Virus record (IMG/VR): IMGVR_UViG_3300034159_000035 | Coordinates: 1 to 38,255 of that record | Source: a virus | DNA: 38,255 nucleotides | Direction: 5' to 3' (one strand) | Part shown: in pieces, positions 3,074 to 30,022 of the stretch | Numbering within the stretch: the first letter of the stretch is position 1 | How the letters are laid out: each line of letters opens with the position of its first letter | Made by a program: the position numbers and the translations under genes | The notes under the pieces: model-generated | What the model was told of the DNA's origin: nothing | Seen by the model: only the letters and a program-made list of their open reading frames with translations | Database searches by the model: none

Positions 3074-3104
3074 ATTCAGGTAACGGTGCTCAAAGCGCAC
3101 CAGT

Positions 3105-3124
3105 GGGCGCCCCTCGGGGCGCCC
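3105..3124. terminator. Perfect 9-bp GC hairpin between leftward genes
   Basis: GGGCGCCCC TC GGGGCGCCC: a perfect inverted repeat located between the 78-aa gene and the 102-aa gene. It lacks a T-run on either strand, so it is at best a pause or processing site, or a weak terminator. Confidence 0.5.
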
Positions 3125-3144: not shown

Positions 3145-3381
3145 CTACTCGCTCACGTCCTCGTAAAGGTCCGCAGGCTCGCTATCGCGCTCCGCGATGT
3201 AGCTCTGGATGCAGAAGTGCTCGTCGCGGTTGTGGCCCCACGCAAAGAACCTTCCAGCATGGAACCAGGACGTTTGTGGCGGCAGGCCAGGCGGATTGGA
3301 TGCGCGCTTTTCATAAAGCGTGAACATGGTCGCCGGCTTGCGATCCACAAAGACGTTCTGGTGTTGCTCTGTTTTGTACAC
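3145..3381 (-). CDS. Hypothetical protein, 78 aa
   Basis: Start is a GTG at 3381, supported by GGAG 7 nt upstream. Residues 15-55 contain aromatic and proline clusters (PPGLPPQTSWFHAGRFFAWGHN), and the C-terminus is acidic. No family recognised. It lies just downstream of an intrinsic terminator (3399-3418) and just upstream of a GC hairpin, so its expression may depend on read-through or on a local promoter that I could not identify. Confidence 0.6.
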   Translation of the reverse strand: MYKTEQHQNVFVDRKPATMFTLYEKRASNPPGLPPQTSWFHAGRFFAWGHNRDEHFCIQSYIAERDSEPADLYEDVSE

Positions 3382-3398
3382 TGATGATCTCCAAGAAA

Positions 3399-3418
3399 GA
3401 GCCCGGTTTCCCGGGCTC
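3399..3418 (-). terminator. Intrinsic terminator after the VWA gene
   Basis: On the minus strand GAGCCCGG GAAA CCGGGCTC is a perfect 8-bp stem followed by TTTCTT. It starts 5 nt after the stop of the VWA gene (3423), in the right orientation to end the MoxR-VWA transcript. Confidence 0.75.
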
Positions 3419-3422
3419 GGGG

Positions 3423-4595
3423 TTAAGCCTCAATGACGATGCGCTCGCCAAAGGGCATGTCGGGCGCGATGCCCCCGGCATAATCGGCCCACAGGACCGG
3501 ATAGCCGGGATCCTCCGGGGTGTCGGCCGGGTCCATGTCGGTGAAGTACACCGCGCACACCGGATCGATGTCGTGCTCGGCGATCCAATCGAACGCGGGT
3601 TGAAAGCGCGTCCCGCCACGTCCCTGCGCGGTCAACTCGAAGGGATAGTCCTGGGGCTCCAACTCCTGGACATCCCGTACCTGCTTGTCGCACTGGATGA
3701 TGAACAGGCGCTCGGGCTTGATCTCTTCCAGGATGGCGTTCAACTCCGCGCTGAATTGCTCCAGCATCCCGGTGTCGACCGATGCGGATGTGTCCAGGAT
3801 CAGCGCCATGGTCCCGATGGTCTCAGACCGCACGCTGGGCAGGTAGAGGCCCTGGCCAATGTAGCGGCGGTTGGGACGCGACCACGAATAGTCGTCGCGC
3901 GCTGGCCGGGTCATGAACTCCCGCAACAGCGCCGTCCAGGGCGCCAGCGGGTTCATGATGTCGCGCACCAATTCGGCGAGTCCCGCGCAGAGCAACCCGC
4001 GGCCCTTGGCCAGTTGCGCTGCCTGGGAGACGGCGACCTTCCAGTCGCGTTCCTGCTGGCGTTGCTCGGCCGGCGTGGGGGCCTGTCCCTGGGCATTGGG
4101 CGGTGCGTCCAGCACGCCCCCGCAGCCCCCGGCATCCTTGCCCGGCATGGGTCGTCCATCGGGCGTTTGCTCCGGCCGCTTTCCCCCGGAACCGGGTGGG
4201 GGCTCCAGCTTGGCGTAGATGCGTTCCGCCGGATCGTCCAGATACTCGGTGTTGACCAGCGCCCCCTCGGGCAGGCGCAGGCCGGCGTTGAGCACGATCG
4301 GATTCACCGCAAAGTCGGCCGCGATGTTCCACCGATCCGGATCGCGCCCCTGGCGACGCCACACATGCCCAAGGGTCACATGCTGCACTTCATGGCACAC
4401 CACGCCCTTCATCTCGTCCATCGGCATGGCGTCGATGGCCTCGGGCTGGTAGTACAGGTGCGTGCCGTCCGTGGCCATGCAGGAGGGCAGCCAGTCCGCG
4501 GCCACCAGTTTGAGGCGGGTCGACAGCGACCCATAGAACGGCTGTTCCAGGATCAGGGCGCCCCTGGCCCTGACCATCTTGGTGATGGACTTCAT
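3423..4595 (-). CDS. HExxH + VWA-domain protein (DUF2201-like putative metallopeptidase)
   Basis: 390 aa from ATG at 4595, which overlaps the upstream stop (ATGA) and has AGGAGG before it. An N-terminal alpha/beta domain has VVCHEVQHVTLGH with HEVQH at residues 68-72, a zinc-protease-type HExxH. A Pro/Gln-rich linker (about 132-185) follows. The C-terminal half is a VWA-like domain with an intact MIDAS set: DTSAS at 268-272, GGT at 327-329 and FTDMD at 351-355. This arrangement is typical of DUF2201 proteins, which are often coded beside MoxR ATPases. In such pairs the VWA protein is thought to present a substrate or metal-binding client to the ATPase. Here it is the last gene of the module and is followed by an intrinsic terminator. 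Confidence 0.85.
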   Translation of the reverse strand: MKSITKMVRARGALILEQPFYGSLSTRLKLVAADWLPSCMATDGTHLYYQPEAIDAMPMDEMKGVVCHEVQHVTLGHVWRRQGRDPDRWNIAADFAVNPIVLNAGLRLPEGALVNTEYLDDPAERIYAKLEPPPGSGGKRPEQTPDGRPMPGKDAGGCGGVLDAPPNAQGQAPTPAEQRQQERDWKVAVSQAAQLAKGRGLLCAGLAELVRDIMNPLAPWTALLREFMTRPARDDYSWSRPNRRYIGQGLYLPSVRSETIGTMALILDTSASVDTGMLEQFSAELNAILEEIKPERLFIIQCDKQVRDVQELEPQDYPFELTAQGRGGTRFQPAFDWIAEHDIDPVCAVYFTDMDPADTPEDPGYPVLWADYAGGIAPDMPFGERIVIEA

Positions 4596-5512
4596 GCCGC
4601 CTCCTGCATTGAAGGCTCTCCGCAATAGCCCGCCATGGCTTCCAGGATGTCGTCGGCCGCGGTGCGCACAAACTCGCGCGTGGCCTTGCTGGTCCTGATC
4701 TGGTCGCTGTTCCATTTGGACAGCTTCATCTCCGCTTCCCGGCAAATACGGGCCAGCTCCGGGTCCCCGGTAAAGTCGAGCTTCGGGATCATCTCGATGA
4801 CCGCCTTGATGTTGTCGATCCACACCGGCAGCCACAGCTTGCGCTCGGCGGTCTCGTACTTGTCGAGCCGGTCGCGCAGGTTCTCGATCGGATCACGCAG
4901 GCGCCCCCAGAGGTCACCAATCGCCGCGGTCAGCACGCCCTGCATGCGCCGCTCCAGGTCCGCCTTGATCTTCACCGTCTCCATCTCGTTCAAGTCGACC
5001 CGGAAGTCGGACTGATCCGGGATCGGCTGGATGATGACGTTCACCACGAAGCGCTTGTACTCCCCGGTCTCCCGGTCGCGCTCGAAGAGCTTGTCCGGGT
5101 CCGGGAAGTCGGACAGCTTGAACATCGTCCCCAAGCGCGTGCGGGCCTCTTCGATGGCTTCATCGTAGGTCCGGGCGAAGTCCGTAGTGGCGGACTTGAA
5201 TTGCTCCCTGAATGTCCGTTGGGCGGACATATAATCGAAGTAGTTCTGGCTCGGAAGTAAGCGCCAGCCTTCATCGTCCCACGGCAGGGTGTTCTTGACG
5301 TGGTACTCATAGGCCCGCGCGCCGATGTCATCGAGCTTTTCGGTGAAGCGCGGCGCGATCAGCGCCTTGCGGTATTTCCCGGCCTTCTCGATATCGGCAT
5401 CGTGGCGGCGGGCCACATCGGCGCTGATCTCCTTGTCGGCCTTACCGCGGCCGAATCCCTTGCCCTTCACGGCATGGCGAACCAGCATGGCTTTTTCGGT
5501 CAAGATAGTCAT
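4592..5512 (-). CDS. Helical protein in the MoxR-VWA module (possible DUF3150)
   Basis: 306 aa from ATG at 5512, with GAGGAAG upstream; the longer open frame to 5665 overlaps the neighbouring gene and is not needed. The protein is charged and mostly helical (for example residues 45-70, 95-125 and 190-240), with no signal peptide or catalytic motif. Placement between a MoxR ATPase and a VWA/HExxH protein, its size and its helical character recall phage DUF3150 proteins, but I cannot confirm this. It probably acts as the third component, an adaptor or substrate of the ATPase-VWA pair. Stop and start overlap with the VWA gene implies coupled translation at a fixed ratio. Confidence 0.75.
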   Translation of the reverse strand: MTILTEKAMLVRHAVKGKGFGRGKADKEISADVARRHDADIEKAGKYRKALIAPRFTEKLDDIGARAYEYHVKNTLPWDDEGWRLLPSQNYFDYMSAQRTFREQFKSATTDFARTYDEAIEEARTRLGTMFKLSDFPDPDKLFERDRETGEYKRFVVNVIIQPIPDQSDFRVDLNEMETVKIKADLERRMQGVLTAAIGDLWGRLRDPIENLRDRLDKYETAERKLWLPVWIDNIKAVIEMIPKLDFTGDPELARICREAEMKLSKWNSDQIRTSKATREFVRTAADDILEAMAGYCGEPSMQEAA

Positions 5513-5523
5513 CGTGGCTTCCT

Positions 5524-5727
5524 CTATAGTTCTGAAAATGATTGACGACGCCGACGATCGTGCTGCTCCAGGTATTCGTTGGCGATGGACAACGCACCCT
5601 GCCAGTCCTGGACATTTTCCAAGACGACCACCACAGCAGTTAGGCCCTCGCGCAATTCCTTGCACTCGTACTTTAAGGCGTCGCGTTCATGGATCAGGTT
5701 TACTACCCATTCGGTTGTCTTATTCAC
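5524..5727 (-). CDS. Small coiled-coil protein, 67 aa
   Basis: GTG start at 5727 overlapping the MoxR stop (GTGA). Residues 10-55 form a probable amphipathic helix/coiled coil (LIHERDALKYECKELREGL), followed by a basic stretch HDRRRRQ. It sits between the MoxR ATPase and the helical third component, so it is part of the same translational unit and may be an accessory subunit. No family recognised. Confidence 0.65.
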   Translation of the reverse strand: MNKTTEWVVNLIHERDALKYECKELREGLTAVVVVLENVQDWQGALSIANEYLEQHDRRRRQSFSEL

Positions 5728-6755
5728 AGCACAACCTCCGAATATTCAGACCCAAATTCAATGAAAGCGCGCGTGTGCTTCAGGTCCGGGTTGCGACCGC
5801 AGCAATCGGACATAATCAGCACGGTGAACTCCGCGGGCAGGCGCTTAACGTAGGTCCAGATGCGCTCGATGTTGTTGGAGTCGGCCCGGCGCACCAGCGC
5901 TCCGGCCAGGGCGAAGATGGTCGATGGGTCGTCCGGAACATCGGCCGTGGCCGGCGCCAGCAGGATCGAATCGACGGTCGGCAGCCGGCGGAAGATGCGC
6001 AGGAACGCGGTGAACTCTCCCGCCGCCCCCTGCCCCACCACGGATGCGTAAGCGGGAAACTCGATCTCGGGATCGGGGTCGGCTTCCAAGAGCCGATGGA
6101 CGAACTCCCACGAGCGTGGGGTCGGGAACGCCTTCTCGCCGCTCCTGGCGTCGAAGGCGTGCAGCAGCTCCGGGCGGAAGCGGATAAACGCGATCACTTC
6201 AGCCCGCAGTCCAGCGGACAAGGCCCAGCGCACCCAGTCGGGCACGTCGGGGACAACCTCGTAATGACCGAAGCGGTTGGCCAATGGGGTCGGCATGCGG
6301 TTGGTCACCCCGCGGTCACCCTCCCGGTTGCCGGCGGCGATCACGTCCCAGCCGGTCGGAAGCACGTACTCTCCGAGCCGGCGATCCAGCACAAGCTGGT
6401 AGAGCGCGGCTTGGACGGCTTGCGGCGCGGCATTCAGTTCGTCCAGGAACAGGATGCCTTCGATGCCATCGCGATCCCACCGGGGCAGGATGTCCGGCAC
6501 CGACCAGTGCGTCATGCCGTCGCCGTTGACCACAGGGATTCCCCGCAGATCAACCGGGTCGAATTGCACGGCCCGAATATCGATCACCTGACGCCCGAGT
6601 TTATTGGCGGTCTGGTGAACGAGTTGGCTCTTTCCAACCCCCGGCGGTCCCCACAGGAAGGTGGGCACGCGCGCCCGGATCATGGTCTCAAGTGCGAGGC
6701 TGGTCTGAGACGGTTTGACCTGGATAACCAGGTTGGTCATACTCTCATTCGTCAT
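5724..6755 (-). CDS. MoxR-type AAA+ ATPase
   Basis: 343 aa; ATG at 6755 with GAGGA 7 nt upstream. Walker A GPPGVGKS at residues 36-43, Walker B ILFLDEL at 101-107, sensor-1 AAGN at 140-143 and the arginine-finger region LANRFGHYEV around 158-167 are all intact. The order and the short lid match the MoxR/RavA/CoxD branch of AAA+ chaperones, which remodel or insert cofactors into client complexes together with VWA partners. The VWA partner is two genes downstream. In a phage early operon it may serve virion maturation, host take-over or defence; the sequence does not decide between these. Confidence 0.9.
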   Translation of the reverse strand: MTNESMTNLVIQVKPSQTSLALETMIRARVPTFLWGPPGVGKSQLVHQTANKLGRQVIDIRAVQFDPVDLRGIPVVNGDGMTHWSVPDILPRWDRDGIEGILFLDELNAAPQAVQAALYQLVLDRRLGEYVLPTGWDVIAAGNREGDRGVTNRMPTPLANRFGHYEVVPDVPDWVRWALSAGLRAEVIAFIRFRPELLHAFDARSGEKAFPTPRSWEFVHRLLEADPDPEIEFPAYASVVGQGAAGEFTAFLRIFRRLPTVDSILLAPATADVPDDPSTIFALAGALVRRADSNNIERIWTYVKRLPAEFTVLIMSDCCGRNPDLKHTRAFIEFGSEYSEVVL

Positions 6756-7695: not shown

Positions 7696-7956
7696 TTATT
7701 TGCCGGCCGCGATGATGCGGGCGAGCTGTGAATCGAGCATCGACACGGATTCGCCTTTCTTGCCGTTCATGCTGTGTCGCGCTGTTCCGAATTTGGAAGT
7801 GAAAATTCGCGCGTCCGGGCCGGCGGAATAGCGAGTACCGTTGGGCCGGGTGAAGTCCCCGTCTTTCCAGACGGTGCCCTTGGTAACGCGGCTGGCCTTG
7901 TCTTCGGTCCAGCCAAGGGCGCGTAGGCCCTGAGCGATTTGCTGGGTCTTGGTCAT
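7696..7956 (-). CDS. Hypothetical small basic protein, 86 aa
   Basis: ATG at 7956 overlapping the previous stop (TAATG). Starts MTKTQQIAQGLRALGWTEDK, a helix followed by a basic beta segment (TVWKDGDFTRPNG). The first residues MTKT-Q resemble those of the next upstream gene (MTKTKQ), and the DNA around both start codons is nearly identical, which hints at a small local duplication of the translation start. Net charge is positive; DNA or RNA binding is possible but unproven. Confidence 0.7.
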   Translation of the reverse strand: MTKTQQIAQGLRALGWTEDKASRVTKGTVWKDGDFTRPNGTRYSAGPDARIFTSKFGTARHSMNGKKGESVSMLDSQLARIIAAGK

Positions 7957-8135
7957 TACTTGATCCTCCGCTTATAGGCGGTTTGCTTGGAAGTCAGCAT
8001 TACGATGACGAACTCGGTGCCGCGTGGAGCGTGCTGATCTTCGTAAAGACCGGCCCCACGGAAGAGCTGTCCGGCGGCGAGCCGTTGCGCATACTCTTCT
8101 CTTGTCAGTCTGGCGACCTGCTTGGTCTTGGTCAT
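7956..8135 (-). CDS. First short gene of the leftward operon, 59 aa
   Basis: ATG at 8135 with AGGAG 7 nt upstream. A small basic protein (MTKTKQVARLTREEYAQRLAAG...), ending in YKRRIK. It is the first clearly translated gene after the roughly 500-nt structured leader. A longer frame (7972-8445) overlaps it in a different register and is described separately. Confidence 0.7.
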   Translation of the reverse strand: MTKTKQVARLTREEYAQRLAAGQLFRGAGLYEDQHAPRGTEFVIVMLTSKQTAYKRRIK

Positions 8136-8445
8136 TGGATGCTCCTGAAGTATGGAAACGATGGCTTGATTCTGCCCCCTGCTTGAGGGAGCAGAACGAA
8201 ACCCATCGGGTTTCGGATCGGGTAGCGCGCAAGCCGCGCGCAAAGGAAAACCGATCAAATCCCGCGTTCCCCATCGCAACTACAACGCACGACAAAGGCG
8301 GGTAGACGACCCCGGAAACCCGTGTCATCTCTGCATCCTTCGATTCACGGTTTAGAGCCCCAAAGATGCGGGTTAGGCTGGTCCCAGCTTTGGCGTGCTG
8401 GTAACGGTGCGACTTGGGTCGGTTGGGGTAGCGTATCCGTGGCAT
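7972..8445 (-). CDS. Ash-like ORF over the structured leader (doubtful CDS)
   Basis: 157 codons from ATG 8445, of which about 103 lie upstream of the 59-aa gene and the rest overlap it in another frame. The upstream part reads, in pieces, 'SHRYQHAKAGTSLTRIFGAL', 'MTRVSG', 'YPPLSCVVVAMGNAGFDRF' and 'SETRWVSFCSLKQ'. From memory this resembles prophage proteins annotated as ash-family or Icd-like, in which an 'ETR.V.F.SL' segment recurs. Here that segment is encoded by a perfect hairpin (8197-8215), so apparent protein conservation may reflect RNA structure. No Shine-Dalgarno precedes the ATG. It may be a real peptide, a leader ORF or purely a shadow of an RNA. Confidence 0.35.
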   Translation of the reverse strand: MPRIRYPNRPKSHRYQHAKAGTSLTRIFGALNRESKDAEMTRVSGVVYPPLSCVVVAMGNAGFDRFSFARGLRATRSETRWVSFCSLKQGAESSHRFHTSGASNDQDQAGRQTDKRRVCATARRRTALPWGRSLRRSARSTRHRVRHRNADFQANRL

Positions 8446-8640
8446 CCAACGTCGGCTGATCGCGTGTCTGTTGTCCTGGTAGCATCTCCTGCTACCCCTT
8501 GGGCTTTAGCGGTTCCATCGCAGCGGTAACCGGCTTGGGTGCATCTCTTCTACTGCACCTAACGCAAACCGGGCGCGGGTTCCTGGCGGGGAATCTATGG
8601 TATAGACGGGAAACATTCCGTGTTTTTTGTCAATCGCAAT
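8136..8640 (-). ncRNA. Multi-stem-loop leader RNA of the leftward operon
   Basis: Downstream of the promoter at 8651-8679, the minus strand carries at least seven inverted repeats before the first well-supported gene. In transcription order they are: 8559-8538 (6 bp); 8496-8478 (7 bp, loop GGAGA); 8393-8360 (CCAAA/TTTGG enclosing GCTGG/CCAGC); 8322-8298 (CGGGT/ACCCG); 8240-8225 (GCGCG/CGCGC); 8215-8197 (perfect 8 bp, loop GAT); and 8196-8170 (6 bp + mismatch + 4 bp). Two short ORFs (12 and 46 codons) start inside the first two hairpins, with AGAAGAG or AGGAG abutting the ATG. This suggests attenuation, an antitermination site or a P4-like immunity RNA. The structure is visible; the function is inferred. 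Confidence 0.5.
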
Positions 8641-8650: not shown

Positions 8651-8679
8651 ATTATCTGAAAAAATCCCGCAATAGTCAA
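8651..8679 (-). promoter_or_regulatory. Leftward sigma70-type promoter
   Basis: Minus strand: TTGACT (8679-8674), 17-bp spacer, GATAAT (8656-8651). Five of six matches in each box with ideal spacing, in a locally AT-rich stretch. It should start the transcript of the whole 8135-157 operon near 8643. Confidence 0.65.
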
Positions 8680-8791: not shown

Positions 8792-9589
8792 ATGAATACA
8801 CCCACAACGCCCAAGCCCCGCAAGAAGCCCATCGCATCCGACGCCGGCCCGACTGTTCCCCGTGGAACCATTCGCAAGAATCGCATCGTCGGGCATGCCC
8901 TGGTTGACCCCCGTACATTGCTCGCGCACCCGGATAATTGGCGGATTCATCCCGACCACCAACGGGCAATCCTGCGCGGTTCATTGGACGATCTGGGCTG
9001 GACCAAGAGCGTCCTGGTGCAGCAGTCAAAGGGGCTCATCGTCGACGGCCATGCGCGCGTGCTCATCGCGGTTCACGATGGTGAGGCCGAGGTTCCGGTC
9101 GAATACGTGGATCTGACTGATGCCGAGGTCATCAAGGCGCTGGCGGCCCTGGACCCCATATCCTCGCTGGCAGACATCGATTTTCGGGCGCTGGAGAAAA
9201 CGCTGGGGCAGATCGACGGCCCGGACCCCGGTCTGGCGGCTCTCTACGATGAACTAGAGGCCCAGGTCGCCGATGCGCTGGCGATGGAACGGCAGTACGA
9301 GGGACGCACCGAGACCAACTTCAATTCGGTGCAGAAGAGCTTTTCCGAGCGCAAGGTCGTGATTAAGGCGGTCTATGCCCTGGACGAGGCCGAGCTGGTG
9401 GAGCGCGCCCTGGAGGCGACCGGCAAGATCAATCGCGCCGAGGCGATGCAGATGCTCGCCAGGCATTTCCTGGAAACGCACAACCACCATGACCGTCATC
9501 CGACAGACAAACTCGACAGGCACCCAGAAGATCGGGCTGCGCAAGACGTTGCTGAAGCACTTGGGCGTAGCGCGGCCATTCACGATTGA
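8792..9589 (+). CDS. ParB/Srx-fold N-terminal domain protein
   Basis: 265 aa from ATG 8792. Residues about 35-130 form a ParB N-terminal (ParB/Srx) domain: VDPRTLLAHPDN, a helix, SLDDLGWTKSVLVQ, then GLIVDGHARV at 81-90, the equivalent of the ParB 'DGHHR' loop. There is no ParB-type HTH or dimerisation domain. The rest is helical and charged. Phage ParB-like proteins of this build are usually coded with DNA methyltransferases and can bind or hydrolyse NTPs. Here a methyltransferase gene starts inside its last 101 nt. No Shine-Dalgarno is visible. A segregation role is unlikely; a DNA-modification partner role is more likely. Confidence 0.8.
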   Translation: MNTPTTPKPRKKPIASDAGPTVPRGTIRKNRIVGHALVDPRTLLAHPDNWRIHPDHQRAILRGSLDDLGWTKSVLVQQSKGLIVDGHARVLIAVHDGEAEVPVEYVDLTDAEVIKALAALDPISSLADIDFRALEKTLGQIDGPDPGLAALYDELEAQVADALAMERQYEGRTETNFNSVQKSFSERKVVIKAVYALDEAELVERALEATGKINRAEAMQMLARHFLETHNHHDRHPTDKLDRHPEDRAAQDVAEALGRSAAIHD

Positions 9590-10118
9590 GACCCACGGCG
9601 GGCGCGGCGAGATTTACAAGCGCCTGTACTCGGGATTCCCAGGTGCCGTGATTGAGAAGGACCCCGAGCGCGCGGAGTTCCTAGCCCGGCAGCGGCCGAG
9701 TTGGCTGGTCTATGAGGGCAAGGCCGAGGACATGCTGGGAGCGGGGCTCTTCCGGCGCTATTCGGTGGAGATGCTCGACGTGGATCCGTTCGGCGAGCCC
9801 TGGCCGACGATCGAGGGGTTCTTCGGCTCCAAGCGCGAGCTGGCGCCGCGCATGGCGCTCGCGGTCAACGATGGGCTGCGGCAGAACGCGCGCGTGAAGG
9901 GGGCCTGGAAGGTAGGCTCAACCAAGGCAGCGGCGCGCAAGTGGGGCAACGACAAGGTGCGCGCCCATTACTTGGACCTATGCCGGGAGAAGGTCACCGA
10001 GATAGCCGGGGCGGCCGGCTACTCGGTGGAGTGGTGGCACGGGTATTACACCGGCAACCTAGATGACATGACCCACTATGGGGCGTTGTTGGTCAGAACC
10101 GTTTCTCATGATGCCTAA
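9489..10118 (+). CDS. Class I SAM-dependent methyltransferase-like protein
   Basis: 209 aa from ATG 9489, overlapping the ParB gene by 101 nt in another frame. Rossmann features are ETHGGRGEIY at 34-43 (motif I position), IEKDPE at 55-60 (acidic end of strand 2) and DVDPFGEPW at 97-105 (motif IV). The 'D-DPFG-P' form of motif IV recalls Trm1-type tRNA methyltransferases and some N-methyltransferases of nucleic acids rather than the DPPY of common DNA adenine enzymes. The substrate is therefore open: DNA base, tRNA or small molecule. Weak ribosome site; coupling to ParB translation is likely. The stop overlaps a convergent 49-aa gene by 3 nt. Confidence 0.65.
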   Translation: MTVIRQTNSTGTQKIGLRKTLLKHLGVARPFTIETHGGRGEIYKRLYSGFPGAVIEKDPERAEFLARQRPSWLVYEGKAEDMLGAGLFRRYSVEMLDVDPFGEPWPTIEGFFGSKRELAPRMALAVNDGLRQNARVKGAWKVGSTKAAARKWGNDKVRAHYLDLCREKVTEIAGAAGYSVEWWHGYYTGNLDDMTHYGALLVRTVSHDA

Positions 10119-10267: not shown

Positions 10268-11137
10268 TCAAGCTCCCAACAGATCGGCCAGGTGGCCATG
10301 GTAAGCGGTCGGCCATTCCTTCCAAGCGCGTCCGTCCAGTTTGGACCCGCCCTTGCCCACGGGGTCGTTCATGGCGACCCAGCGGGCACCGGGGATGCCG
10401 GGCGGCGGGTTCTTGAAGAGCGGGTTGTTGCCGATGGTCCCGTACTGCTTCAGGAAATAGGGCACCCCTTGGTCCTGGCACTGGTCGCGAAGGGAGCGCA
10501 GCCAGTCGGCGTGCATCGGGCGGGCGCCGGGGCCAGATTCCCCCCCGGCGATGACCCAATGAATGCCGGTCAGGTCCAGCGTCCCGAGGTCCCCGATCAG
10601 CGGCTCGCAGGAGAGGAAGCGCACGGCCGCGGGCACCGCGCGCAGAGTGTCGATGCGGTGCGTGGCCTTGGCGTTTTCGACGGTCGCGCCGATCCAGACG
10701 TTATCGGGAAACCAGTTTCCGGGGCTGATGTAAAGCCCGGAGCGGAACGCGAACGGCTGAATGTTCTCCGGACGCTTGGTGAGGATCTGAAAGTAGTGCT
10801 GGGGGCAGGCCAGCATCACAGTCAGCGCCTCATGGCGCCAAGCGTCTTCGGCCTTTTCGTGAAAAAAGTCGGACATGGAATTGACGAACACCAGACTGCC
10901 ATGCTTAAACCCGTAGGGCTTGCGCAGGGTGGCGTCGGTGGCACGATTGACCAGTCCGGTCCAGACGGGGTTGCCATTGACCTTCGTCGTGGTCCCCTGG
11001 TATTGGACCATGTTGAAGTTGTGCTCCAGGCGATGGGCCTGGCGCATGGCGTAGCAGTTCTTGCAGCCGTCGCTCTTGATGGAGCAGCCGACAAACGGGT
11101 TCCAGGTTTCGTCCGTCCATTCGATTTCTGTTGCCAT
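10268..11137 (-). CDS. DUF5131 family (phage Gp37/Gp68) protein
   Basis: 289 aa; ATG at 11137 with GAGGA upstream. The N-terminus IEWTDETWNPFVGC and the cysteine set C18-x6-C25-x2-C28 followed by YA are the hallmark of phage Gp37/Gp68 (DUF5131) proteins. VFVNSMSDFFHE, FQILTKRPENI, VWIGATVEN and HWVIAGGESGPGARPMH are the other conserved blocks. The clustered cysteines and TIM-barrel-like pattern suggest a radical-SAM-related iron-sulfur enzyme; the reaction is not established. It is full length and has all motifs. It shares an operon with a 79-aa and a 49-aa protein and faces the ParB-methyltransferase pair. Confidence 0.85.
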   Translation of the reverse strand: MATEIEWTDETWNPFVGCSIKSDGCKNCYAMRQAHRLEHNFNMVQYQGTTTKVNGNPVWTGLVNRATDATLRKPYGFKHGSLVFVNSMSDFFHEKAEDAWRHEALTVMLACPQHYFQILTKRPENIQPFAFRSGLYISPGNWFPDNVWIGATVENAKATHRIDTLRAVPAAVRFLSCEPLIGDLGTLDLTGIHWVIAGGESGPGARPMHADWLRSLRDQCQDQGVPYFLKQYGTIGNNPLFKNPPPGIPGARWVAMNDPVGKGGSKLDGRAWKEWPTAYHGHLADLLGA

Positions 11138-20745: not shown

Positions 20746-21789
20746 ATGTCAACCTCGATTTACACGATGGAAGCACAACTGGCCATCAAGGATCCCGACA
20801 CCGGGGTGTGGGGCGGCTACACCGATCCCAAGAATCTCATCGCACTGGAGATTCAAAAGCCCGAGCCGACCAAGATTGAGGACTATTCCTCGCGTCCTGA
20901 CGACACCTTTGCCTCTTTGCGCGAAACCTTTCTGGTTCCCAAGGGCCAGGCGTCGATCAAGCTGTCGACCAAAGACCTTGTGAACCGCAATAGTGCGCCG
21001 GTCGAGATGCTGATGTTGGCCGCGGCACTCTCGGCCAAGGTCGCGTCGCTGACCGTCGCCGCGGTGACCGCGGCCCCCTTCTCCTTTGTGGTCACGCAAC
21101 TGGAGCTAAATTATCCCACTGGTCATCGCAATTTGATCGGCGCCTCGACCGTGGTGAATCGGCAGGCATCAGCGGCCATCACCGGACTGAAGAGCGGCAG
21201 TGTCGAGAGTGCCACCGCCACGGTGACGACGGTCACGGGCGCAGGCTGGACGGCCAGTGCGCTGATTGGCAAGAAGGCCGCGATAACCTCCGGGGCCGGA
21301 GCCGGGCAAGTCGTGGCGATTACCGCCAATACGGCGACGACCTTCACGGTGGCCGCCTGGACGACCCCCATCGACGCAACCTCGCGCTTCTCCATTGTCG
21401 AATCAGCCTCCCTGAGCGCGGGCTCCGACTATAGCGTTGACGAGAAGTACGGCACCATCAAGCCACTGACCGCTGGCAGCATCGAGGTCGGGGACGTGCT
21501 CACCGGCACGGTAACCTCGCGCGCGATCAGCGGCATTCGCTTCCGTGGTGCGACGGTGCCCGCGGTGACCTTCCGGCTCCAGGGTAAGGTCAAGGACATC
21601 AAGAACGGCAATGAAGGCTTCATGACGGTGCATGAGGCCGTAGCCTATAGCTCATCGGCCCAGCAATTCGTGGCGAATGCCGAGTCACCCGAGTTCAAGA
21701 CCCTTGAGTTATCGGGTGACCTGTTGGTGCCAGAAGGGTTCTCCGAGCCATACACGCTGGATGACAACCTACTCTATGCCGCGGCGTGA
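20746..21789 (+). CDS. Major tail (tube) protein
   Basis: 347 aa; ATG 20746 with GCGGAG upstream. The N-terminus has YTMEAQLAIKDPDTGVWGGYTDPKNLIALEIQKPEP, the tube-domain start, and the C-terminus has TFRLQGKVKDIKNGNEGFMTVHEAVAYSS and LSGDLLVPEGFSEPY, typical of large tail-tube proteins. A Gly/Ala/Thr-rich repeat-like insert (about residues 138-240: AAITGLKSGSVESATATV..., GAGAGQVVAITANTAT...) looks like an added Ig-type surface domain, as in lambda V. Polymerises around the tape measure. Confidence 0.85.
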   Translation: MSTSIYTMEAQLAIKDPDTGVWGGYTDPKNLIALEIQKPEPTKIEDYSSRPDDTFASLRETFLVPKGQASIKLSTKDLVNRNSAPVEMLMLAAALSAKVASLTVAAVTAAPFSFVVTQLELNYPTGHRNLIGASTVVNRQASAAITGLKSGSVESATATVTTVTGAGWTASALIGKKAAITSGAGAGQVVAITANTATTFTVAAWTTPIDATSRFSIVESASLSAGSDYSVDEKYGTIKPLTAGSIEVGDVLTGTVTSRAISGIRFRGATVPAVTFRLQGKVKDIKNGNEGFMTVHEAVAYSSSAQQFVANAESPEFKTLELSGDLLVPEGFSEPYTLDDNLLYAAA

Positions 21790-21802
21790 GTGCTGACATC
21801 CT

Positions 21803-21822
21803 CCCCGCCCTAATGGGCGGGG
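21803..21822. repeat. CCCCGCCC-TAAT-GGGCGGGG hairpin, IS200/IS605-end-like
   Basis: A perfect 8-bp GC stem with TAAT loop, 13 nt after the tail-tube stop. The flanks (TGACATCCT before, CTTCAACAT after) match, from memory, the common motif at ends of IS200/IS605 (TnpB-type) elements, minus-strand reading GAAGCCCCGCCC...GGGCGGGGAGGATGTCA. No tnpA or tnpB remains. It may now act as a transcriptional brake between tail tube and fibre genes; there is no real T-run. Confidence 0.55.
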
Positions 21823-21840
21823 CTTCAACATGGAATAATT

Positions 21841-22188
21841 GTGTTGACTTGGCAACTTGGCATTTCTGCGTTAGCCGCCGTGGTTGCCCTATTGGGTCTG
21901 TTGCGGCTTGCGGTGTTCGATATACTCAATAAGATTGACAAGCAATTTGAAGCCAACGAACGTCGCCACCAAGAGGCCAGTCGGATATGGCATGAGCGGC
22001 TCAAGGATCGCGATGAGCGGATTGCCGATCAGATCGATAAAGTCAGCCTTAAACTCTCCAATCAATTCATTACGCGAAGTGAATATGAAAAGGAAGTGAG
22101 TAGACTCCATAACGCCGTAGAAAACCTAATGCGAGTGATCGAGCAAGTCGACCAGAAACTTCCGCCTTCGACGGATAACCCACAATGA
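21841..22188 (+). CDS. Membrane-anchored coiled-coil protein, 115 aa
   Basis: GTG start 21841; lower GC than the flanking genes. Residues 4-27 are one hydrophobic segment (WQLGISALAAVVALLGLLRLAVF). Residues 30-105 are a long charged helix with coiled-coil character (KIDKQFEANERRHQEASRIWHERLKDRDERI, ...EVSRLHNAVENLMRVIEQVD). It could be a lysis accessory (Rz-like topology, but without a partner), a superinfection-exclusion factor or an injected membrane protein. It sits directly behind the IS-like hairpin and looks like an insertion between tail tube and fibre. The stop overlaps the fibre gene start. Confidence 0.75.
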   Translation: MLTWQLGISALAAVVALLGLLRLAVFDILNKIDKQFEANERRHQEASRIWHERLKDRDERIADQIDKVSLKLSNQFITRSEYEKEVSRLHNAVENLMRVIEQVDQKLPPSTDNPQ

Positions 22189-24869
22189 TCCGTGACATTA
22201 TCATCCCCCCGATCAGTACCCCCGGCGATGCGGCCGGGCTGGCCGGGCGGTTGGTGATTAACCTGGCGCTGGTGGATCGCGACGGACAGCCGGTCCCAGC
22301 GTCCAACGTTGCCAATACGCGCATCGTCGCCGGGCTCGGGAAGTTCATCGTCACCGACAGTCCCGTTACGCTACAGGTCTGTACCCAAGACGAACTGGCG
22401 GGTGACACGTTCTACCGCGTTGACGTTGAGCGGGGGCGCGAGCCGCCATGGGTTGCTCTGGTGCAGGTGCCGGCGGGCGACGGATCGCCATTGACCTGGG
22501 GAGAGTTTGTCCAGTTGGGTGCGCCAGTGGGTGGCGCTGATCTGTGGACGCGGTGGTTGTTGCCGCGAAACGCCGCCGACGGACAATCCGTGGCGTGGGA
22601 CGACGCGGGCCAGTCCTGGATAGCTGCCTCGACGGTTCTGGATGCGCCGCAGACCGGAGGTCCCTACGGGCGGCAGGGCGGGGCCTGGGTCTCGGCGGTC
22701 GGCCCCAAGGGTGACCAAGGTCCTGCTGGTCCTACGGCGGTCTCGGGGGATGCCGGCAACCTCGCGGTGCTTGGCACCGACGGCAAGCTGCTCGTCGATT
22801 CCGTGCATGTCACCCCGGAGATCATCGGCGCTTTGCCAGTCGCGCATGCCGGGAGCGGGGGCGCGGCCCACGCCAATGCCATTGCCGCCGGTGCGGCGGG
22901 GTTCCTGACGGGCGCCGACAAGGCCAAGCTCGATGGCGTTGCGACCGGGGCCACCGCGTCGGGAGCGACGGGCGATGCCTTTGCCGCCGTGCATCTGGTG
23001 GCCTTCAGCCACTCCAACATTGCCAATGGGCAGACGGCCTTCACCTGGGGCAATCACGCCGCCGCCGGGTATGCGCTGTCCGCCTCGTTAGGCTCGGCCG
23101 CTACGCACCCTGTTGGCGACTTCGCCAGCGCGGCGCAAGGGGTCAAGGCCGATAGCGCGAGCCAGCCAGGGCACACGCAAGCCGCCGCGACGATCTCGGG
23201 CTTGGCGACGGTGGCGACCACCGGGGCCTACGCCGACCTCAGCGGGAAACCCACACTGGGCAGCGCCGCGGCTACCGCCAGCTCGGCTTATGCCACCGCG
23301 GCCCAGGGCGTTGACGCGCGCACGCCTACGGCCCACAAAGCCACGCACGCCACGGGCGGCACCGATGTTCTGAGCGCCGCTGATATTGGAGCGGCGACCG
23401 CCGCCCAGGGTGTGCTTGCCGCCAGCGCCAGCCAACCCGGACACACCCAGGCTTCGAGCACGATCAGCGACAGCACGCCAGCAGGAAGGGCACTGCTAAC
23501 CGGGGCCGATGCGGCGGCGCAACGCACCAGTCTTGGATTGGGGACGGCAGCAACCCATGCGACGACTGAGTTTGCCAATGTTGCAGGGGTCACTGGGGGG
23601 CAATCGTTAATTGGTGGGTCCGGGGTAACTGATACTTTAGTGATTCAGGGGACGAGTGGAAATGGTACGACCACTGCCGCTGCGCTGATTGCGAAAGTTG
23701 GAAATAACGGTTCCGTTAGCGCGGTGACCGTTCTTAACAATGGAAATGTAGGTATAGGAACCGCCAACCCGGTAGCGAAATTTGAGGTTAATTATTCTGG
23801 GGCCGTCGGCCCGGCAATTGGTGCAACAAATTCGATTACGGTCGTAGGACCAAATGGTACTTCTGGTCAGTTCTCGGCAGTCAGTTTTGGCGCACCAACG
23901 GCAGGCGCAACGATTGCTGGGTACTCAGCAAACGGCATCGCTGCTGCACCCATTGTTGTAAACAAAGATGACGTTCTGCTGAGGGTTATCGCTGCGGGAT
24001 ATGACGGGACAGCATGGTCAGGATCACGAGCTAGGATACTGATTGCGGCAGACGAGAATTGGACTACATCATTCCAAGGGACGCGGATTTCGTTCTTTAC
24101 TGCGGTCAATGGTAGTAACAACCTCACTGAAAAACTTCGTATTTCAAATGATGGGAAAATTGGAGTTAATGCCGCTGATCCGGCAGGCGCCCTTGACGTA
24201 AAAGGCACTGGAACCACGACTGGGATTACCTTCCAGCTACGGGATAGCGCTAATACTGTTCGCGTAAAGGCTCTGGATTCTGGCGTAGTCACTATCGGGG
24301 GTGCGACAGATTACGCGCAGTTTTCCGTGAATGGTTCGTTATCGTTTACTGGTTCGGCGGGCATTGCTGCGTCCGCAATCACTTCCGGCGTCATCCCAGT
24401 CGCACGCCTCGCGACCGGAACTCCGAACGGCACAAAATACATCCGAGATGATGGAACGCTCGCGGTCCCAGGTGGAGGACTGTGGAGAGGGGAAACAGCG
24501 CCGAGTGACCCCATCGCATACCCGTTCTGGTGGGACACGACTGAAATTGAACAAGGCTCCGCAGCGCTCTATGTTAGTTATGGCACGACGTGGGTATCAG
24601 CGTCTCCCGATAGCCGTCTCACCGATGTGGTCATGCAGGCCGGCATTGCGACGACGCAGGCGAACATTGCCACCACAGCCGCCTCCAATATCGCTGTCGT
24701 CATGGCATCAGGCAACTGGGAAGTCCCACCAGACCTGGCGGTCCTGTTTGATATTCAAATGTTCGATCTGTTCGGCTCTGGCGGATTCTGGACGCCGGTT
24801 GTCTCGAATGCTTCGGATCGACAAGTCTTATTCGATCTGCAATCACTTCAAGTGTTAGGAGCTATGTGA
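22185..24869 (+). CDS. Large tail fibre protein, 894 aa
   Basis: ATG 22185 (ATGA overlap). N-terminal beta domain (1-120), a short collagen-like GPKGDQGPAGP near residue 180, then a repetitive Ala/Thr/Gly shaft. The shaft unit AAQGV-A-SASQPGHTQA-(A/S)TIS occurs twice, with the related AAQGVDARTPTAHKATHATGG between. IGALP and DIGAATAAQ blocks are typical of fibre shafts. From about residue 465 (nt 23580) the DNA becomes more AT-rich and the protein changes to GIGTANPVAKFEV / KIGVNAADPAGALDV units, as seen in fibre tips. The extreme C-terminus is hydrophobic. Role: host recognition. GC change suggests tip exchange. Confidence 0.85.
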   Translation: MIRDIIIPPISTPGDAAGLAGRLVINLALVDRDGQPVPASNVANTRIVAGLGKFIVTDSPVTLQVCTQDELAGDTFYRVDVERGREPPWVALVQVPAGDGSPLTWGEFVQLGAPVGGADLWTRWLLPRNAADGQSVAWDDAGQSWIAASTVLDAPQTGGPYGRQGGAWVSAVGPKGDQGPAGPTAVSGDAGNLAVLGTDGKLLVDSVHVTPEIIGALPVAHAGSGGAAHANAIAAGAAGFLTGADKAKLDGVATGATASGATGDAFAAVHLVAFSHSNIANGQTAFTWGNHAAAGYALSASLGSAATHPVGDFASAAQGVKADSASQPGHTQAAATISGLATVATTGAYADLSGKPTLGSAAATASSAYATAAQGVDARTPTAHKATHATGGTDVLSAADIGAATAAQGVLAASASQPGHTQASSTISDSTPAGRALLTGADAAAQRTSLGLGTAATHATTEFANVAGVTGGQSLIGGSGVTDTLVIQGTSGNGTTTAAALIAKVGNNGSVSAVTVLNNGNVGIGTANPVAKFEVNYSGAVGPAIGATNSITVVGPNGTSGQFSAVSFGAPTAGATIAGYSANGIAAAPIVVNKDDVLLRVIAAGYDGTAWSGSRARILIAADENWTTSFQGTRISFFTAVNGSNNLTEKLRISNDGKIGVNAADPAGALDVKGTGTTTGITFQLRDSANTVRVKALDSGVVTIGGATDYAQFSVNGSLSFTGSAGIAASAITSGVIPVARLATGTPNGTKYIRDDGTLAVPGGGLWRGETAPSDPIAYPFWWDTTEIEQGSAALYVSYGTTWVSASPDSRLTDVVMQAGIATTQANIATTAASNIAVVMASGNWEVPPDLAVLFDIQMFDLFGSGGFWTPVVSNASDRQVLFDLQSLQVLGAM

Positions 24870-25273
24870 TGGCCGTCATTCTCGCAACGGACGTGATCGG
24901 CATTGCCAAGACGATCCTACCTGCCGATACGACAGCAAAAGTTGATTTGCTGGATAACTCCGCTGGACTGAAAACCAAGCGCGTTGAGGCCCTTTCGGTG
25001 GTCACCGATGACACGGCGGCGGCTGTGCTCGATCTGTGGCTCTTGGTCAGCGGCACAGCGTATCGGCTTGGGGCGACCAGCATTATCGCGTTGTCAGGGA
25101 CCAATGGCACGGCGGATCGGATCAATCTACTCACCAAACTGGGTGTCGTGGAGTCCGATAACATTCCGGTGCTGCATGTCCCGGCTGGCGCGAAATTGCA
25201 GGCGAGTGTGCAGGCGGCTGTGACTGCGGCCAAGACGGTTACGATTACGGGCCGGGCACGGAAATACGAGTAA
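24869..25273 (+). CDS. Virion-associated small protein, 134 aa
   Basis: ATG 24869 with AGGAG 7 nt before it; overlaps the fibre stop and ends in a TAATG overlap with the next gene. A beta-rich protein (ATDVIGIAKTILPADTTAKVDLLDNSAGLKTKRVEALSVV, VPAGAKLQASVQAAVTAAKTVTITGRARKYE). From its place among fibre genes it is probably a structural or adaptor subunit of the fibre or baseplate. No family name can be given. Confidence 0.7.
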   Translation: MAVILATDVIGIAKTILPADTTAKVDLLDNSAGLKTKRVEALSVVTDDTAAAVLDLWLLVSGTAYRLGATSIIALSGTNGTADRINLLTKLGVVESDNIPVLHVPAGAKLQASVQAAVTAAKTVTITGRARKYE

Positions 25274-26592
25274 TGATGAGAGACCCCCTAGCGGCAGCAC
25301 TCGGGGCACCATCGTTTCCCCGCATAGACCCGCTGGCGATGCCGCTCGGGGCCAGCGATGGGTACTCGTCACGGCGACAGCAGCTTGCCGATTTGCGCGC
25401 GATTCAGTCCTGGCCCCAGACCGTGGGATATTACGATCCAAGTCAGCCGGTCTATACCAATACGGGGGATGCGAGTCCGGCAGCGGTTGGTGCCCCGGTG
25501 GGGGTGGCGTATGACCAGTCGAAGGGCTTGGTGCTAGGTCCTGAATTAGTCGGTAGTATGTCAGATGGTAGCGGGTGGGTATTAGGGGCTGGGGTTACTA
25601 TCTCGAATGGAAACATAGTAATAAACGCGATTCCCACAAACACGAATATCGCAGCTTCAGTGTCGATTAATGTATCAGATACTGCTAAATCGTTTTTAGT
25701 AAGTTATGACATGGTTTCGATAACTTCCGGGGCGATAGCACTTGGGGTTATGACATATTGGAGTGATGCGATATATAGGTCGTCAATAGGTAGATACAAA
25801 TCAGTCATCGTTGGCTATAAACCTACTTTTGGTTTTATATCTGCTGGCGGGACAACTTCGGCCACAATTAATAACCTGTCAGTTCGTGAAATTCTCGGCG
25901 GGTCCGCCACCCAACTCACCACCGCCAACAAGCCCCTCCTGCGCCGCACGCCCATTACCGGTAAATACTGGCTCGACGCCGACGCTACGGATGCACTCAA
26001 TCTCGCGCTGCCTGCACAACTGACCAACGCGGCGATTTTCCGCGCGACCGCTGAGGGGGTGACGGTCCAACGCGGACAGACTGTTGCGACCAACTTCAAC
26101 ATCGTCACGCCCTACTCCTTCAACGGGCCGGTGGCGATCTTCAACGAGGCGCTCGGCACGCTGACCGATGCGCAGATTGCGACCATGACGCGGGTGCTAA
26201 GTGCAGGGGTTCCGGCGCTGGGGCCGGAGCTTTTATTAGACACGGAGTTTGACGATGCGTCGAAATGGGCGCTCACGACCGCCACGATACAAGGCGGCGT
26301 GCTTACCCTCTCGGGGTCACCATCATTTGCTGTCGCTGTAGGCCCTGGGCTTGCCCCTGGAGCACTAATTCAGCTTAAATCCAAATTAAACTCTATTGTC
26401 TCAGGTGATTACTATGTTGGCATTGGACCAAGTACTGGTGCAGAGCAAATAATGAGACCAAACATATATTCTATCGGTATTAACTATGCGGTAGGGTATA
26501 CATCATTCATATCTTCTTTTGTTAGAGTTAGTCGGCACACACCTATTACCAATGGTGTTATTGAGTATTGCTCTCTAAAGTCCATATTGTAA
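25273..26592 (+). CDS. Tail protein with two carbohydrate-binding-like modules, 439 aa
   Basis: ATG 25273. Layout: N-terminal adaptor (1-90, GC-rich DNA); module A (about 90-213) opening LGPELVGSMSDGSGW and closing NNLSVREIL; GC-rich linker (about 214-316, GKYWLDADATDALNLALPAQ ... TDAQIATMTRVLSAG); module B (about 317-439) opening LGPELLLDTEFDDASKW and closing IEYCSLKSIL. Modules A and B share the same start and end signatures, typical of beta-sandwich carbohydrate-binding domains in phage tails. Their DNA is clearly AT-richer than the linker. Probably a receptor-binding protein. Confidence 0.8.
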   Translation: MMRDPLAAALGAPSFPRIDPLAMPLGASDGYSSRRQQLADLRAIQSWPQTVGYYDPSQPVYTNTGDASPAAVGAPVGVAYDQSKGLVLGPELVGSMSDGSGWVLGAGVTISNGNIVINAIPTNTNIAASVSINVSDTAKSFLVSYDMVSITSGAIALGVMTYWSDAIYRSSIGRYKSVIVGYKPTFGFISAGGTTSATINNLSVREILGGSATQLTTANKPLLRRTPITGKYWLDADATDALNLALPAQLTNAAIFRATAEGVTVQRGQTVATNFNIVTPYSFNGPVAIFNEALGTLTDAQIATMTRVLSAGVPALGPELLLDTEFDDASKWALTTATIQGGVLTLSGSPSFAVAVGPGLAPGALIQLKSKLNSIVSGDYYVGIGPSTGAEQIMRPNIYSIGINYAVGYTSFISSFVRVSRHTPITNGVIEYCSLKSIL

Positions 26593-26945
26593 TGAACACC
26601 TGGACCGACCGTATCCCCCTGGCATTCCCCGTCGCGCTCTTTGGCACGTCCGATGAAACGCTCGCGCAGATCAATGCCCTGGCGCAGATCATCGACCCGG
26701 CACCGCGGGGTGATTTGACGTTTACGCTGGATCAGGTGCGGGGCGACTATTTCACCGCATCGTCGCCCCTGCTTGAGCATTTCATGCCGGTCTTCGCCGG
26801 TCCGCTTGAAGTCTGGCAGGAGTACATTCCGTTGTTGGCCGCGGAGAAGGGCTTGGAGCCGCCGAGCGCTGAGACCATCGCAGTCCTGCATGGTGGACTG
26901 CTCTATGGCGATGCGGCCAGAGCGCTGGGAGATCAGATTGAATGA
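26592..26945 (+). CDS. Hypothetical protein in fibre cassette, 117 aa
   Basis: ATG 26592 overlapping the preceding TAA. GC-rich. Helical, with LAFPVALFGTSDETLAQINALAQIIDPAPRGDLTF at the N-terminus. The size and position, between two fibre-type proteins with overlapping start/stop codons, would suit a fibre chaperone or assembly factor, but no motif supports it. Confidence 0.65.
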   Translation: MNTWTDRIPLAFPVALFGTSDETLAQINALAQIIDPAPRGDLTFTLDQVRGDYFTASSPLLEHFMPVFAGPLEVWQEYIPLLAAEKGLEPPSAETIAVLHGGLLYGDAARALGDQIE

Positions 26946-27619
26946 CCGCGATTATCTTCCCACCGTCCCCAGCAGAAGGTGAGACACACCCAGTCTCCGA
27001 CCCGCGATGGAAATATATCAATGGCCGGTGGGTTGCCTATTCACTGGGGGCGACTGGACTCGGCATAGGTGTCACGGATGGCGATAAGGGCGGTATCGTC
27101 GTATCTGGGGCCGGCGCGGTATGGACGCTGGATGTCGTTGGCGCTACGGATATCGGCGCGGCGCTGGCCGATGATGACATGATCCCCGTCTACGACACGT
27201 CGGTCACTGCTAATCGCAAGAGCGCGGTATCGAGACTGTGGACGTACATCAAAGAGCTGATCGAGTCCACGAACACCGGAATTGCGCCCTATCTCACTAG
27301 CTACAGAGAAAAGGTTTATGCGATCACCCCAAGCCCAACATTTGTAATTGACCTTAATAATGGATCGATACAAACAATCACGCTTGGCGCAAGCAGTACA
27401 CCGACGACGGTCAACTTCGCCGATGGTCAATCGGTAACATTATTTGTTGACGATGGATCAGGGTATACGATCACCTGGACAAGCACTACCTTTGGAACTG
27501 GCGGGAATGACAGCACGGCTATTTACTGGCTGAACGGGGCCAAGCCAACGCTCGCCACGACTGGCTACACGGTCGTGACATTGGTAAAAATTAGCGGCCA
27601 GGTATACGGACGTTATTGA
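26942..27619 (+). CDS. Tail fibre-like protein, 225 aa
   Basis: ATG 26942 (ATGA overlap). An N-terminal W-containing strand region (DPRWKYINGRWVAYS), then GLGIGVTDGDKGGIVVSGAGAVWTLDVVG and DDDMIPVYDTSVTANRKSAVSRLWTYIKE, phrases common to phage fibre trimerisation/shaft regions. The C-terminal ~100 residues (VIDLNNGSIQTITLG..., GQSVTLFVDDGSGYTITW) form an all-beta domain on AT-richer DNA. A short fibre or fibre-tip subunit. Confidence 0.75.
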   Translation: MTAIIFPPSPAEGETHPVSDPRWKYINGRWVAYSLGATGLGIGVTDGDKGGIVVSGAGAVWTLDVVGATDIGAALADDDMIPVYDTSVTANRKSAVSRLWTYIKELIESTNTGIAPYLTSYREKVYAITPSPTFVIDLNNGSIQTITLGASSTPTTVNFADGQSVTLFVDDGSGYTITWTSTTFGTGGNDSTAIYWLNGAKPTLATTGYTVVTLVKISGQVYGRY

Positions 27620-28269
27620 TGCTGGCTAACGCGCTGCGGCTGACGAGCAAGGGAAACCCCTGGTATCGCGCTGGGGGGTCGCCGCTGCCCACGGCCGCTT
27701 GGCAAGCTGCGGGTGCTGCGTCTTATGCCGAATCGCTGGTCAATCGTGCCAATCCTGGGACTTATGATGCTTTTGAGGGCGTCGCTCCGTCATGGAGTTC
27801 CAGCGGATGGCAGGGTAACGGGACATCTGCTTATTTACGCACTGGGCTAGTGGTAAGTTCATTAAGCAGCACAATGATCGTGCGTTCATCTGGCGCAGTA
27901 ACTGCAATTGTTGCCGAAATTGGCGCATACCAAGCGACTGGTGCAAAGTATGCTGGATTGCAGTATCAGACAACGAATTTGGCAGCAGTATTACTCGGCA
28001 CAACTGGAAGTAGCAAAACGACAACCGCTGCTTCAGCGGGTATATTAGCGGTGGCTGGAAACACTATGTACTTCAATGGTGCGTCTGCGGGTACATTTAC
28101 ACAAGTTGGTTCAACTCCAAGTATTGAGTTATATTTATTGGGTCGTAACACCGACGGAATACTTGCCAGACCCACGGATCATCTAGTGCAAGCCGCGGCT
28201 GTTTGGAATGGTACGATTCTATCTGCCGCACAAATACTGGCAATATCTACTGCGATGGCGGCACTATGA
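27619..28269 (+). CDS. Lectin-like tail protein, 216 aa
   Basis: ATG 27619 overlapping the preceding stop (TTGATG). Residues 40-216 resemble a concanavalin/LamG-type jelly roll: ANPGTYDAFEGVAPSWSSSGWQGNGTSAYLRTGL at the front, then alternating strands, and the end HLVQAAAVWNGTILSAAQILAISTAMAA, a closing pattern common in phage LamG-like modules. Likely binds host surface glycans. The middle of the gene is AT-richer than its ends. Confidence 0.75.
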   Translation: MLANALRLTSKGNPWYRAGGSPLPTAAWQAAGAASYAESLVNRANPGTYDAFEGVAPSWSSSGWQGNGTSAYLRTGLVVSSLSSTMIVRSSGAVTAIVAEIGAYQATGAKYAGLQYQTTNLAAVLLGTTGSSKTTTAASAGILAVAGNTMYFNGASAGTFTQVGSTPSIELYLLGRNTDGILARPTDHLVQAAAVWNGTILSAAQILAISTAMAAL

Positions 28270-28664
28270 CAACGTATGTAAAAGAAATAGATAACGTGCT
28301 CATCCCGTATGGGATGTATGAGCTACAGCGTGATAACCCTGGGACATCGTTCCCAGATGAGATAACGCCTCCAATCATTGCCGAATATGGTCTTATACCG
28401 CTGATTCGCGACAGCGACGCCGCCCCCCTGGGCTACGCCGATCCAGTGCTCGAAACGCGCGACGGACAGCAAGTCGCCGTGCAGTATGCACTCGGTACGC
28501 CAGCAGAACGCGCAATGGCAACTGCCCGTATCAAGTGGGCCGCGCAAGCCAACACGAACAAACGCAAGGCCGCGCTGGCTGAGATTGCTGCACCTATTGA
28601 CCCAACTGATCCGGCCGCCCTGCACGCCCGTCTGGCAGCCATCACTCAACTACTCGGAGCCTAA
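28266..28664 (+). CDS. Tail-associated / fibre-assembly-like protein, 132 aa
   Basis: ATG 28266 (ATGA overlap). The N-terminus TYVKEIDNVLIPYGMYELQRDNPGTSFP and the helical C-terminus (ERAMATARIKWAAQANTNKRKAALAEIAAP) have the general look of phage tail-fibre assembly or DUF4376-type proteins. Both the position behind the lectin-like gene and the helical, charged tail fit a chaperone for the preceding receptor-binding protein. Confidence in function is low. Confidence 0.65.
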   Translation: MTTYVKEIDNVLIPYGMYELQRDNPGTSFPDEITPPIIAEYGLIPLIRDSDAAPLGYADPVLETRDGQQVAVQYALGTPAERAMATARIKWAAQANTNKRKAALAEIAAPIDPTDPAALHARLAAITQLLGA

Positions 28665-28668
28665 TATC

Positions 28669-28938: not shown

Positions 28939-28952
28939 TCCATCATAATCAC

Positions 28953-29261: not shown

Positions 29262-29279
29262 GTCTGCGGCTGCGCCTAT

Positions 29280-29688: not shown

Positions 29689-29701
29689 GGAGAAGACCGG
29701 A

Positions 29702-30016: not shown

Positions 30017-30022
30017 TCCTTT

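Follow-up and report, generated by a model that had tools for sequence, protein, structure and literature searches.

To our knowledge, control RNAs of phages that work without a protein are few, put having received the most study, and a shortage of relatives has left most phage leaders unstudied. Antitermination by RNA alone is an established property of HK022 put, and the same has been proposed for EAR and canT (PMC9378689, PMC11658703). The put elements (putL and putR) are about 70 nt long and consist of two stem-loops with almost no linker; putR is located about 270 nt downstream of its own transcription start (PMC9378689). Tn916 canT and Bacillus EAR are leader RNAs heading long operons with internal terminators, and no dedicated protein is known for them (PMC11658703). 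The cyanophage motifs manA and wcaG are conserved structured RNAs in the 5' UTRs of phage operons, and their function was unknown when they were described (PMC2864571).

The DNA analyzed here (the window) is an entire IMG/VR virus record; it has 38,255 bases and a G+C content of 61%. Tailed-phage head and tail genes run rightward from about 11.5 kb. A leftward gene set starts at position 8135 with four small genes without assigned function, which are followed in leftward order by the genes for a MoxR-type AAA+ ATPase (5724-6755, minus strand), a 357-aa protein, a DUF2201 metallopeptidase/VWA protein and a protein with weak sliding-clamp-like matches. The first leftward gene (7956-8135, minus strand) encodes 59 aa and has no family match. 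It has a start region in common with the second gene (7696-7956, minus strand), MTKTKQVAR and MTKTQQIAQ, respectively, with 87.5% DNA identity over 24 nt; the remaining parts of the two proteins are unlike. A ParB-like gene, encoded at 8792, is divergent from the leftward operon. A close relative of the window was absent from INPHARED and PLSDB, the best terminase matches were VP882-like phages with about 39% identity, and a search of the window for a tyrosine integrase found none.

A homologous leader was found on an uncultured 59-kb phage contig, IMGVR_UViG_3300034196_000113, which was reached via the ParB-like protein of the window. L002 designates one locus of this contig; other loci of the contig were used too. 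The window and the L002 contig share 52-72% identity in their ParB-like, MoxR, DUF5131 and terminase proteins (terminase 72%). A 209-aa protein encoded at 9489-10118 (plus strand) is 76% identical to its counterpart in the L002 contig, has no Pfam match and gave no relative in the INPHARED, PLSDB or GTDB scan. The L002 leader has the equivalent location, with the divergent ParB-like gene on one side and the leftward MoxR/DUF2201 operon on the other, and a 212-nt stretch lying between the ParB-like and MoxR genes of L002 is 71% identical to the window leader. A full alignment of the two leaders revealed a well conserved 3' half and a diverged 5' half. The core is non-coding, as indicated by alignment gaps of 10, 9 and 1 nt and by stops in every frame of L002. 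Upstream of the window leader, the leftward promoter claimed in the earlier note is present as a sigma-70-like site (TTGACT-17-GATAAT, 8651-8679, minus strand), scoring 10/12 in a consensus scan as a match to consensus only; a promoter-like site with a 9/12 consensus match precedes the L002 leader on the same strand (L002 3893-3864).

The distance from the end of the hairpin array to the first start codon, read from the sequence, is 34 nt in the window and 33 nt in L002. The gene directly after the leader is a MoxR ATPase gene in L002, 62% identical to that of the window, whereas the window has the unrelated 59-aa gene at this place and MoxR 1.4 kb further on. Since the leader keeps its position and spacing while the first genes differ, the element appears to belong to the operon and not to the first gene. 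The module of MoxR ATPase, 357-aa protein and DUF2201 protein (3423-6755, minus strand) is common to the window, L002 and a further locus, L008; at L008 the MoxR operon is present and the leader is absent.

The structure of the core was analyzed using alignment A5, which comprised window positions 8166-8396 and L002 positions 3297-3528, both on the minus strand, with 71% identity. Pairs were counted for a 51-pair consensus after an unsupported closing helix had been removed. All 51 pairs form in both phages; both partners have changed in 7 pairs and a single partner in another 7, and none is broken. The minus strand pairs 102 of 102 cells versus 89 on the plus strand, and thirteen G-U cells can pair in the minus-strand RNA alone, their equivalents on the other strand being A-C mismatches. 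This argues for a leftward-read RNA and not a DNA palindrome. When the 3' partners were slid by 1-3 columns, pairing fell from 100% to 41-52% of cells, and shuffled 3' partners matched the observed covariation in 2-6 of 500 cases. Alignment folding gave a z-score of about -7.5 to -7.7, with 0 of 300 column-shuffled alignments at the observed energy. Forty coding-region controls from the same genome pair had a mean z of -0.3 (sd 1.3), the lowest being one outlier at -5.3. Consensus folding reached -73 on the minus strand versus -48 on the plus strand. Because only two members are known, the covariation is not phylogenetically assessable. At the level of sequence, the comparison shows that a fold of the minus-strand RNA is under selection in the two phages.

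In the 5' to 3' direction of the minus strand, to which all hairpin coordinates refer, the core comprises seven consecutive stem-loops, hp0 followed by A to F. Hairpin hp0 (8384-8401; CCAGC/GCUGG, in L002 UAGCUU/AAGCUA) was predicted in both phages by local folding, and the alignment is loose here. Hairpin A (8333-8369; GCAUCUU/AGGAUGC) is the most conserved stretch of the leader, with 7 of 7 pairs in both phages and one C-G to U-G wobble between them. Its large, strongly conserved loop (GGGGC..UAAACCGU.AAUCG) and the UAACCC preceding A are the most conserved unpaired parts. A candidate H-type pseudoknot stem, S1 (8356-8379), would join AGCCU (8379-8375) to GGGCU in the loop of A (8360-8356). 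It has 5 of 5 pairs in both phages, including one A-U to G-C double change, and taken alone is indistinguishable from chance in a 5-bp helix null. Hairpin B (8304-8330; AGAUGAC/GUCGUCU, in L002 GGGAGAC/GUCUCCC) has a 7-bp helix in which three pairs show double compensatory changes, one of which leaves a U-G that pairs on the minus strand only. Hairpin C (8261-8302) consists of CCCGC/GCGGG and CUUUGUCG/CGAUGGGG (in L002 CCUUGGUG/CACCGGGG) with a conserved AAC bulge, and shows two double and several one-sided changes with zero broken pairs.

Hairpin D (8216-8256; GAUCGG/CCGAUC, in L002 AUCGGGUCU/AGGCCCGAU) contains an inner hairpin at 8225-8241 in the window. It has five identical pairs and no covariation; its pair probability was 0.92-0.96 in the window and 0.8-1.0 in L002, with 0.99 and 0.98, respectively, in local folding. 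Hairpin E (8197-8215; CGAAACCC-GAU-GGGUUUCG) is a perfect 8-bp stem, identical in L002, and is directly abutted by hairpin F (8170-8196; UUCUGC..GCAGAA), whose inner stem has two double and two one-sided changes. No linker separates D, E and F in the window, and L002 has a linker of one nucleotide. The minimum-energy structure of L002 is the seven-hairpin array. The window forms the array when pairing is limited to 60 nt, with the inner stem of C only partly formed (0.28); in its unrestricted fold, hp0, C and D are replaced by longer-range pairing. A multibranch closing helix suggested by alignment folding, P1 (GGACC/GGUUU), was dropped, since one such 5-bp helix is expected by chance and P1 is not favoured in the fold of either phage. 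An anti-SD switch around the 3' arm of P1 was likewise discarded, as SD accessibility did not change consistently.

From the single sequence alone, the leader would have been a weak finding. Its region contains four perfect hairpins of at least 6 bp, namely the two named in the earlier note, 8197-8215 (8 bp) and 8478-8496 (7 bp), both of which are present, together with 8225-8241 and 8538-8559 (6 bp each). Shuffles of the region averaged 1.2 such hairpins and reached four in 11 of 300 cases. The note's claim of a structural density far above that of the rest of the window did not hold, as 505-base windows average 1.6 perfect hairpins with a maximum of 6. Local folding z-scores of the leader are mild, many other places score lower, and the lowest 120-nt minus-strand values lie outside the leader. 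For the whole leader the folding z was -1.7 (5 of 100 shuffles). The strongest local folding z-scores of the window (about -5) were observed at 10700-10900 and 21440-21920 (minus strand), inside coding regions or at their margins. What supports the structured leftward leader RNA described by the earlier note is the homologous leader with compensatory changes, a check that had been set beforehand. The leader is real, though the earlier description holds only in part; its conserved core is the 3' half, about 8166-8401.

For the 5' half (8400-8640) the alignment-folding statistic was weak or alignment-dependent. The hairpin at 8478-8496 (perfect 7-bp stem GGTAGCA/TGCTACC) has a counterpart at L002 3621-3637, GGAAGC/GCTTCC, in which the stem is kept by one compensatory U-A to A-U change. 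The loop is not kept: GGAGA in the window, the GGA site assessed for a proposed CsrA/RsmA regulator, is ACGAG in L002, which speaks against such a binding site. The hairpin at 8538-8559 (perfect 6-bp stem GGTGCA/TGCACC), containing the start of a 12-aa ORF, may have an L002 counterpart; the alignment is uncertain there, and the ATG is absent from L002. Two tiny ORFs noticed earlier do exist (ATG 8544 to stop 8506, 12 aa; ATG 8485 to stop 8345, 46 aa). Leader peptides, or a leader-peptide attenuator, were nevertheless rejected, given that the SD-like sequences directly abut the ATGs and both ATGs are missing from L002. The segment 8362-8440 is C-rich. A possible alternative pairing of GGGGUAGC (8498-8491) with GCUACCCC (8432-8425) would exclude hairpin 8478-8496 and is at most suggestive. 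Among the X, Y and Z pairings near 8425-8498, X:Z is better by 2.8 kcal/mol in the window and X:Y by 10 kcal/mol in L002, and a switch of this kind was rejected because the energies point in opposite ways in the two phages.

Rfam 15 was searched with both leaders using cmscan at the gathering threshold and at E up to 10, and gave no family match, including riboswitch and leader families. The C4 antisense RNA model (RF01695) likewise gave no match at the gathering threshold or at E up to 10. The leader resembles C4 antisense/P4 CI immunity RNA in being structured and phage leader-derived, but this suggested identity found no support in the absence of a C4 match even at E up to 10. No more leader homologs were found in INPHARED phages, plasmids or GTDB genomes (exact leader blocks in GTDB). 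Exact leader blocks in viral contigs occurred only in the contig of L002, and searches with the first leftward protein, the neighbouring protein, MoxR and TerL yielded a leader homolog on that contig only. A covariance model, R1, was built from the two leaders and, among seven virus records, matched the window and the L002 contig only. R1 did not match HK022 24000-36000 (L017), a result obtained with a two-sequence model on a region within which the put sites were not located, so that remote homology is possible. The leader appears to be a structured phage leader RNA without a named family, and it matches no catalogued RNA family.

The best reading of these comparisons is a putative new cis-acting phage leader RNA with two known members, which probably controls the read-out of the early genes. 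It would be the 5' UTR of the leftward operon, which encodes the MoxR ATPase, the DUF2201 metallopeptidase/VWA protein and their neighbours, and the 3' two thirds of the leader would fold into the array of seven stem-loops, with A possibly a pseudoknot. Action in cis on its own operon is suggested because position and start-codon distance are kept while the first gene differs, and also by the promoter-like sites upstream in both phages. As with HK022 put, a phage-encoded structured RNA with adjacent, nearly linker-free stem-loops lies in a presumably early transcript leader. The order is comparable as well, with the promoter-like site at 8679-8651 followed by the core at 8401-8170 and the first gene at 8135, and the core begins about 250 nt downstream of the -10 box, similar to the distance of putR (about 270 nt). 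However, with seven stem-loops over about 230 nt instead of two in about 70 nt, the leader has neither the size nor the stem number of a put RNA and on these grounds is not one, although it may perhaps work like put.

In the mechanism that we place first, the leader RNA would act on the elongating RNA polymerase by processive antitermination of the put/EAR/canT sort and would allow the early transcript to continue beyond signals such as the terminator-like hairpin at 3418-3399. This is the least certain part of our explanation, and we propose it tentatively and by analogy. The hairpin, GAGCCCGGGAAACCGGGCTC-TTTCTT (3399-3418, minus strand), was identified by scan and sequence as intrinsic-terminator-like; it is strong and lies between the DUF2201 stop and the ribosome-binding site of the next leftward gene. 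A scan found no promoter-like site downstream of it for the further leftward genes, and an internal terminator-like hairpin without a promoter-like site behind it suits processive antitermination. By description only, the leader resembles canT and EAR, which also head long operons with internal terminators; unlike the window leader, these belong to other hosts, and the window leader has no Rfam match. Another GC-rich intergenic hairpin of the leftward operon (GGGCGCCCCGAGGGGCGCCC, about 3101-3123, minus strand) is without a U tract. No minus-strand terminator-like site (hairpin and U tract) was found in either leader, which speaks against ordinary attenuation and was counted for antitermination. 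On the other hand, a comparable internal terminator was not found on the operon strand of the L002 operon, which counts against antitermination. Also counted against our explanation were the missing R1 match in HK022, the seven-stem-loop architecture unlike put, the one coding control at z -5.3 and the loss of C in the unconstrained fold of the window.

The leader could alternatively be an attenuator or a riboswitch-like element, in which binding of a ligand, a protein or the ribosome shifts alternative folds and sets transcription or translation of the operon. Two conserved unpaired stretches, UAACCC and the large loop of A, look like binding surfaces, the candidate pseudoknot has one compensatory pair, and mutually exclusive pairings exist near 8425-8498 and between GGACC/GGUUU and hairpin D. 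The phage-borne 5'-UTR motifs manA and wcaG, whose ligand is not known, provide a precedent (PMC2864571); the leader is like them a conserved structured RNA in the 5' UTR of a phage operon, although the operon differs and neither motif was matched in Rfam. However, none of the conserved hairpins is followed by an intrinsic terminator, no state consistently sequesters the SD, the preference between X:Y and X:Z is opposite in the two phages, and an Rfam riboswitch match is absent. We regard this explanation as possible but doubtful.

Processing of the leader into a stable trans-acting RNA with an anti-host, immunity or decoy function is unlikely. The element is compact, tightly conserved and independent of the first gene, and the abutting hairpins D, E and F would resist decay. 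Yet the core has no adjacent terminator or promoter of its own, it matches neither C4 nor any other Rfam family, and the constant spacing of 33-34 nt to the start codon fits a role in cis better. Less likely still is a purely stabilising or insulating 5' structure that shields the early mRNA from decay without regulation. A linear row of strong hairpins just upstream of the operon would be consistent with it, but the loops and linkers (UAACCC, the loop of A, the bulge of C) are conserved like the stems, and simple shielding would not require this. We consider it very improbable that the element acts at the DNA level, as an origin of replication, a partition site or a packaging site with palindromes that merely look like RNA hairpins, in view of the thirteen strand-specific G-U cells and the far stronger consensus folding of the minus strand. 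In favour of this reading, the leader adjoins the ParB-like gene, and E forms a perfect palindrome in the window and in L002 alike.

For the cis-acting leader RNA that we favour, two uncultured phages were enough to reveal a structure that exceeds 200 nt, is specific to one strand and covaries. In its boldest form, which we consider rather unlikely, the leader would represent a new class of processive antitermination or other RNA-polymerase-modifying leader, with seven stem-loops and a pseudoknot, in which RNA alone is sufficient for read-through of the early operon in an uncultured phage lineage. Should the leader prove to modify RNA polymerase or to sense a ligand, it would provide a new tool and also a direct way to test how common it is for phage early genes to be controlled by RNA alone.
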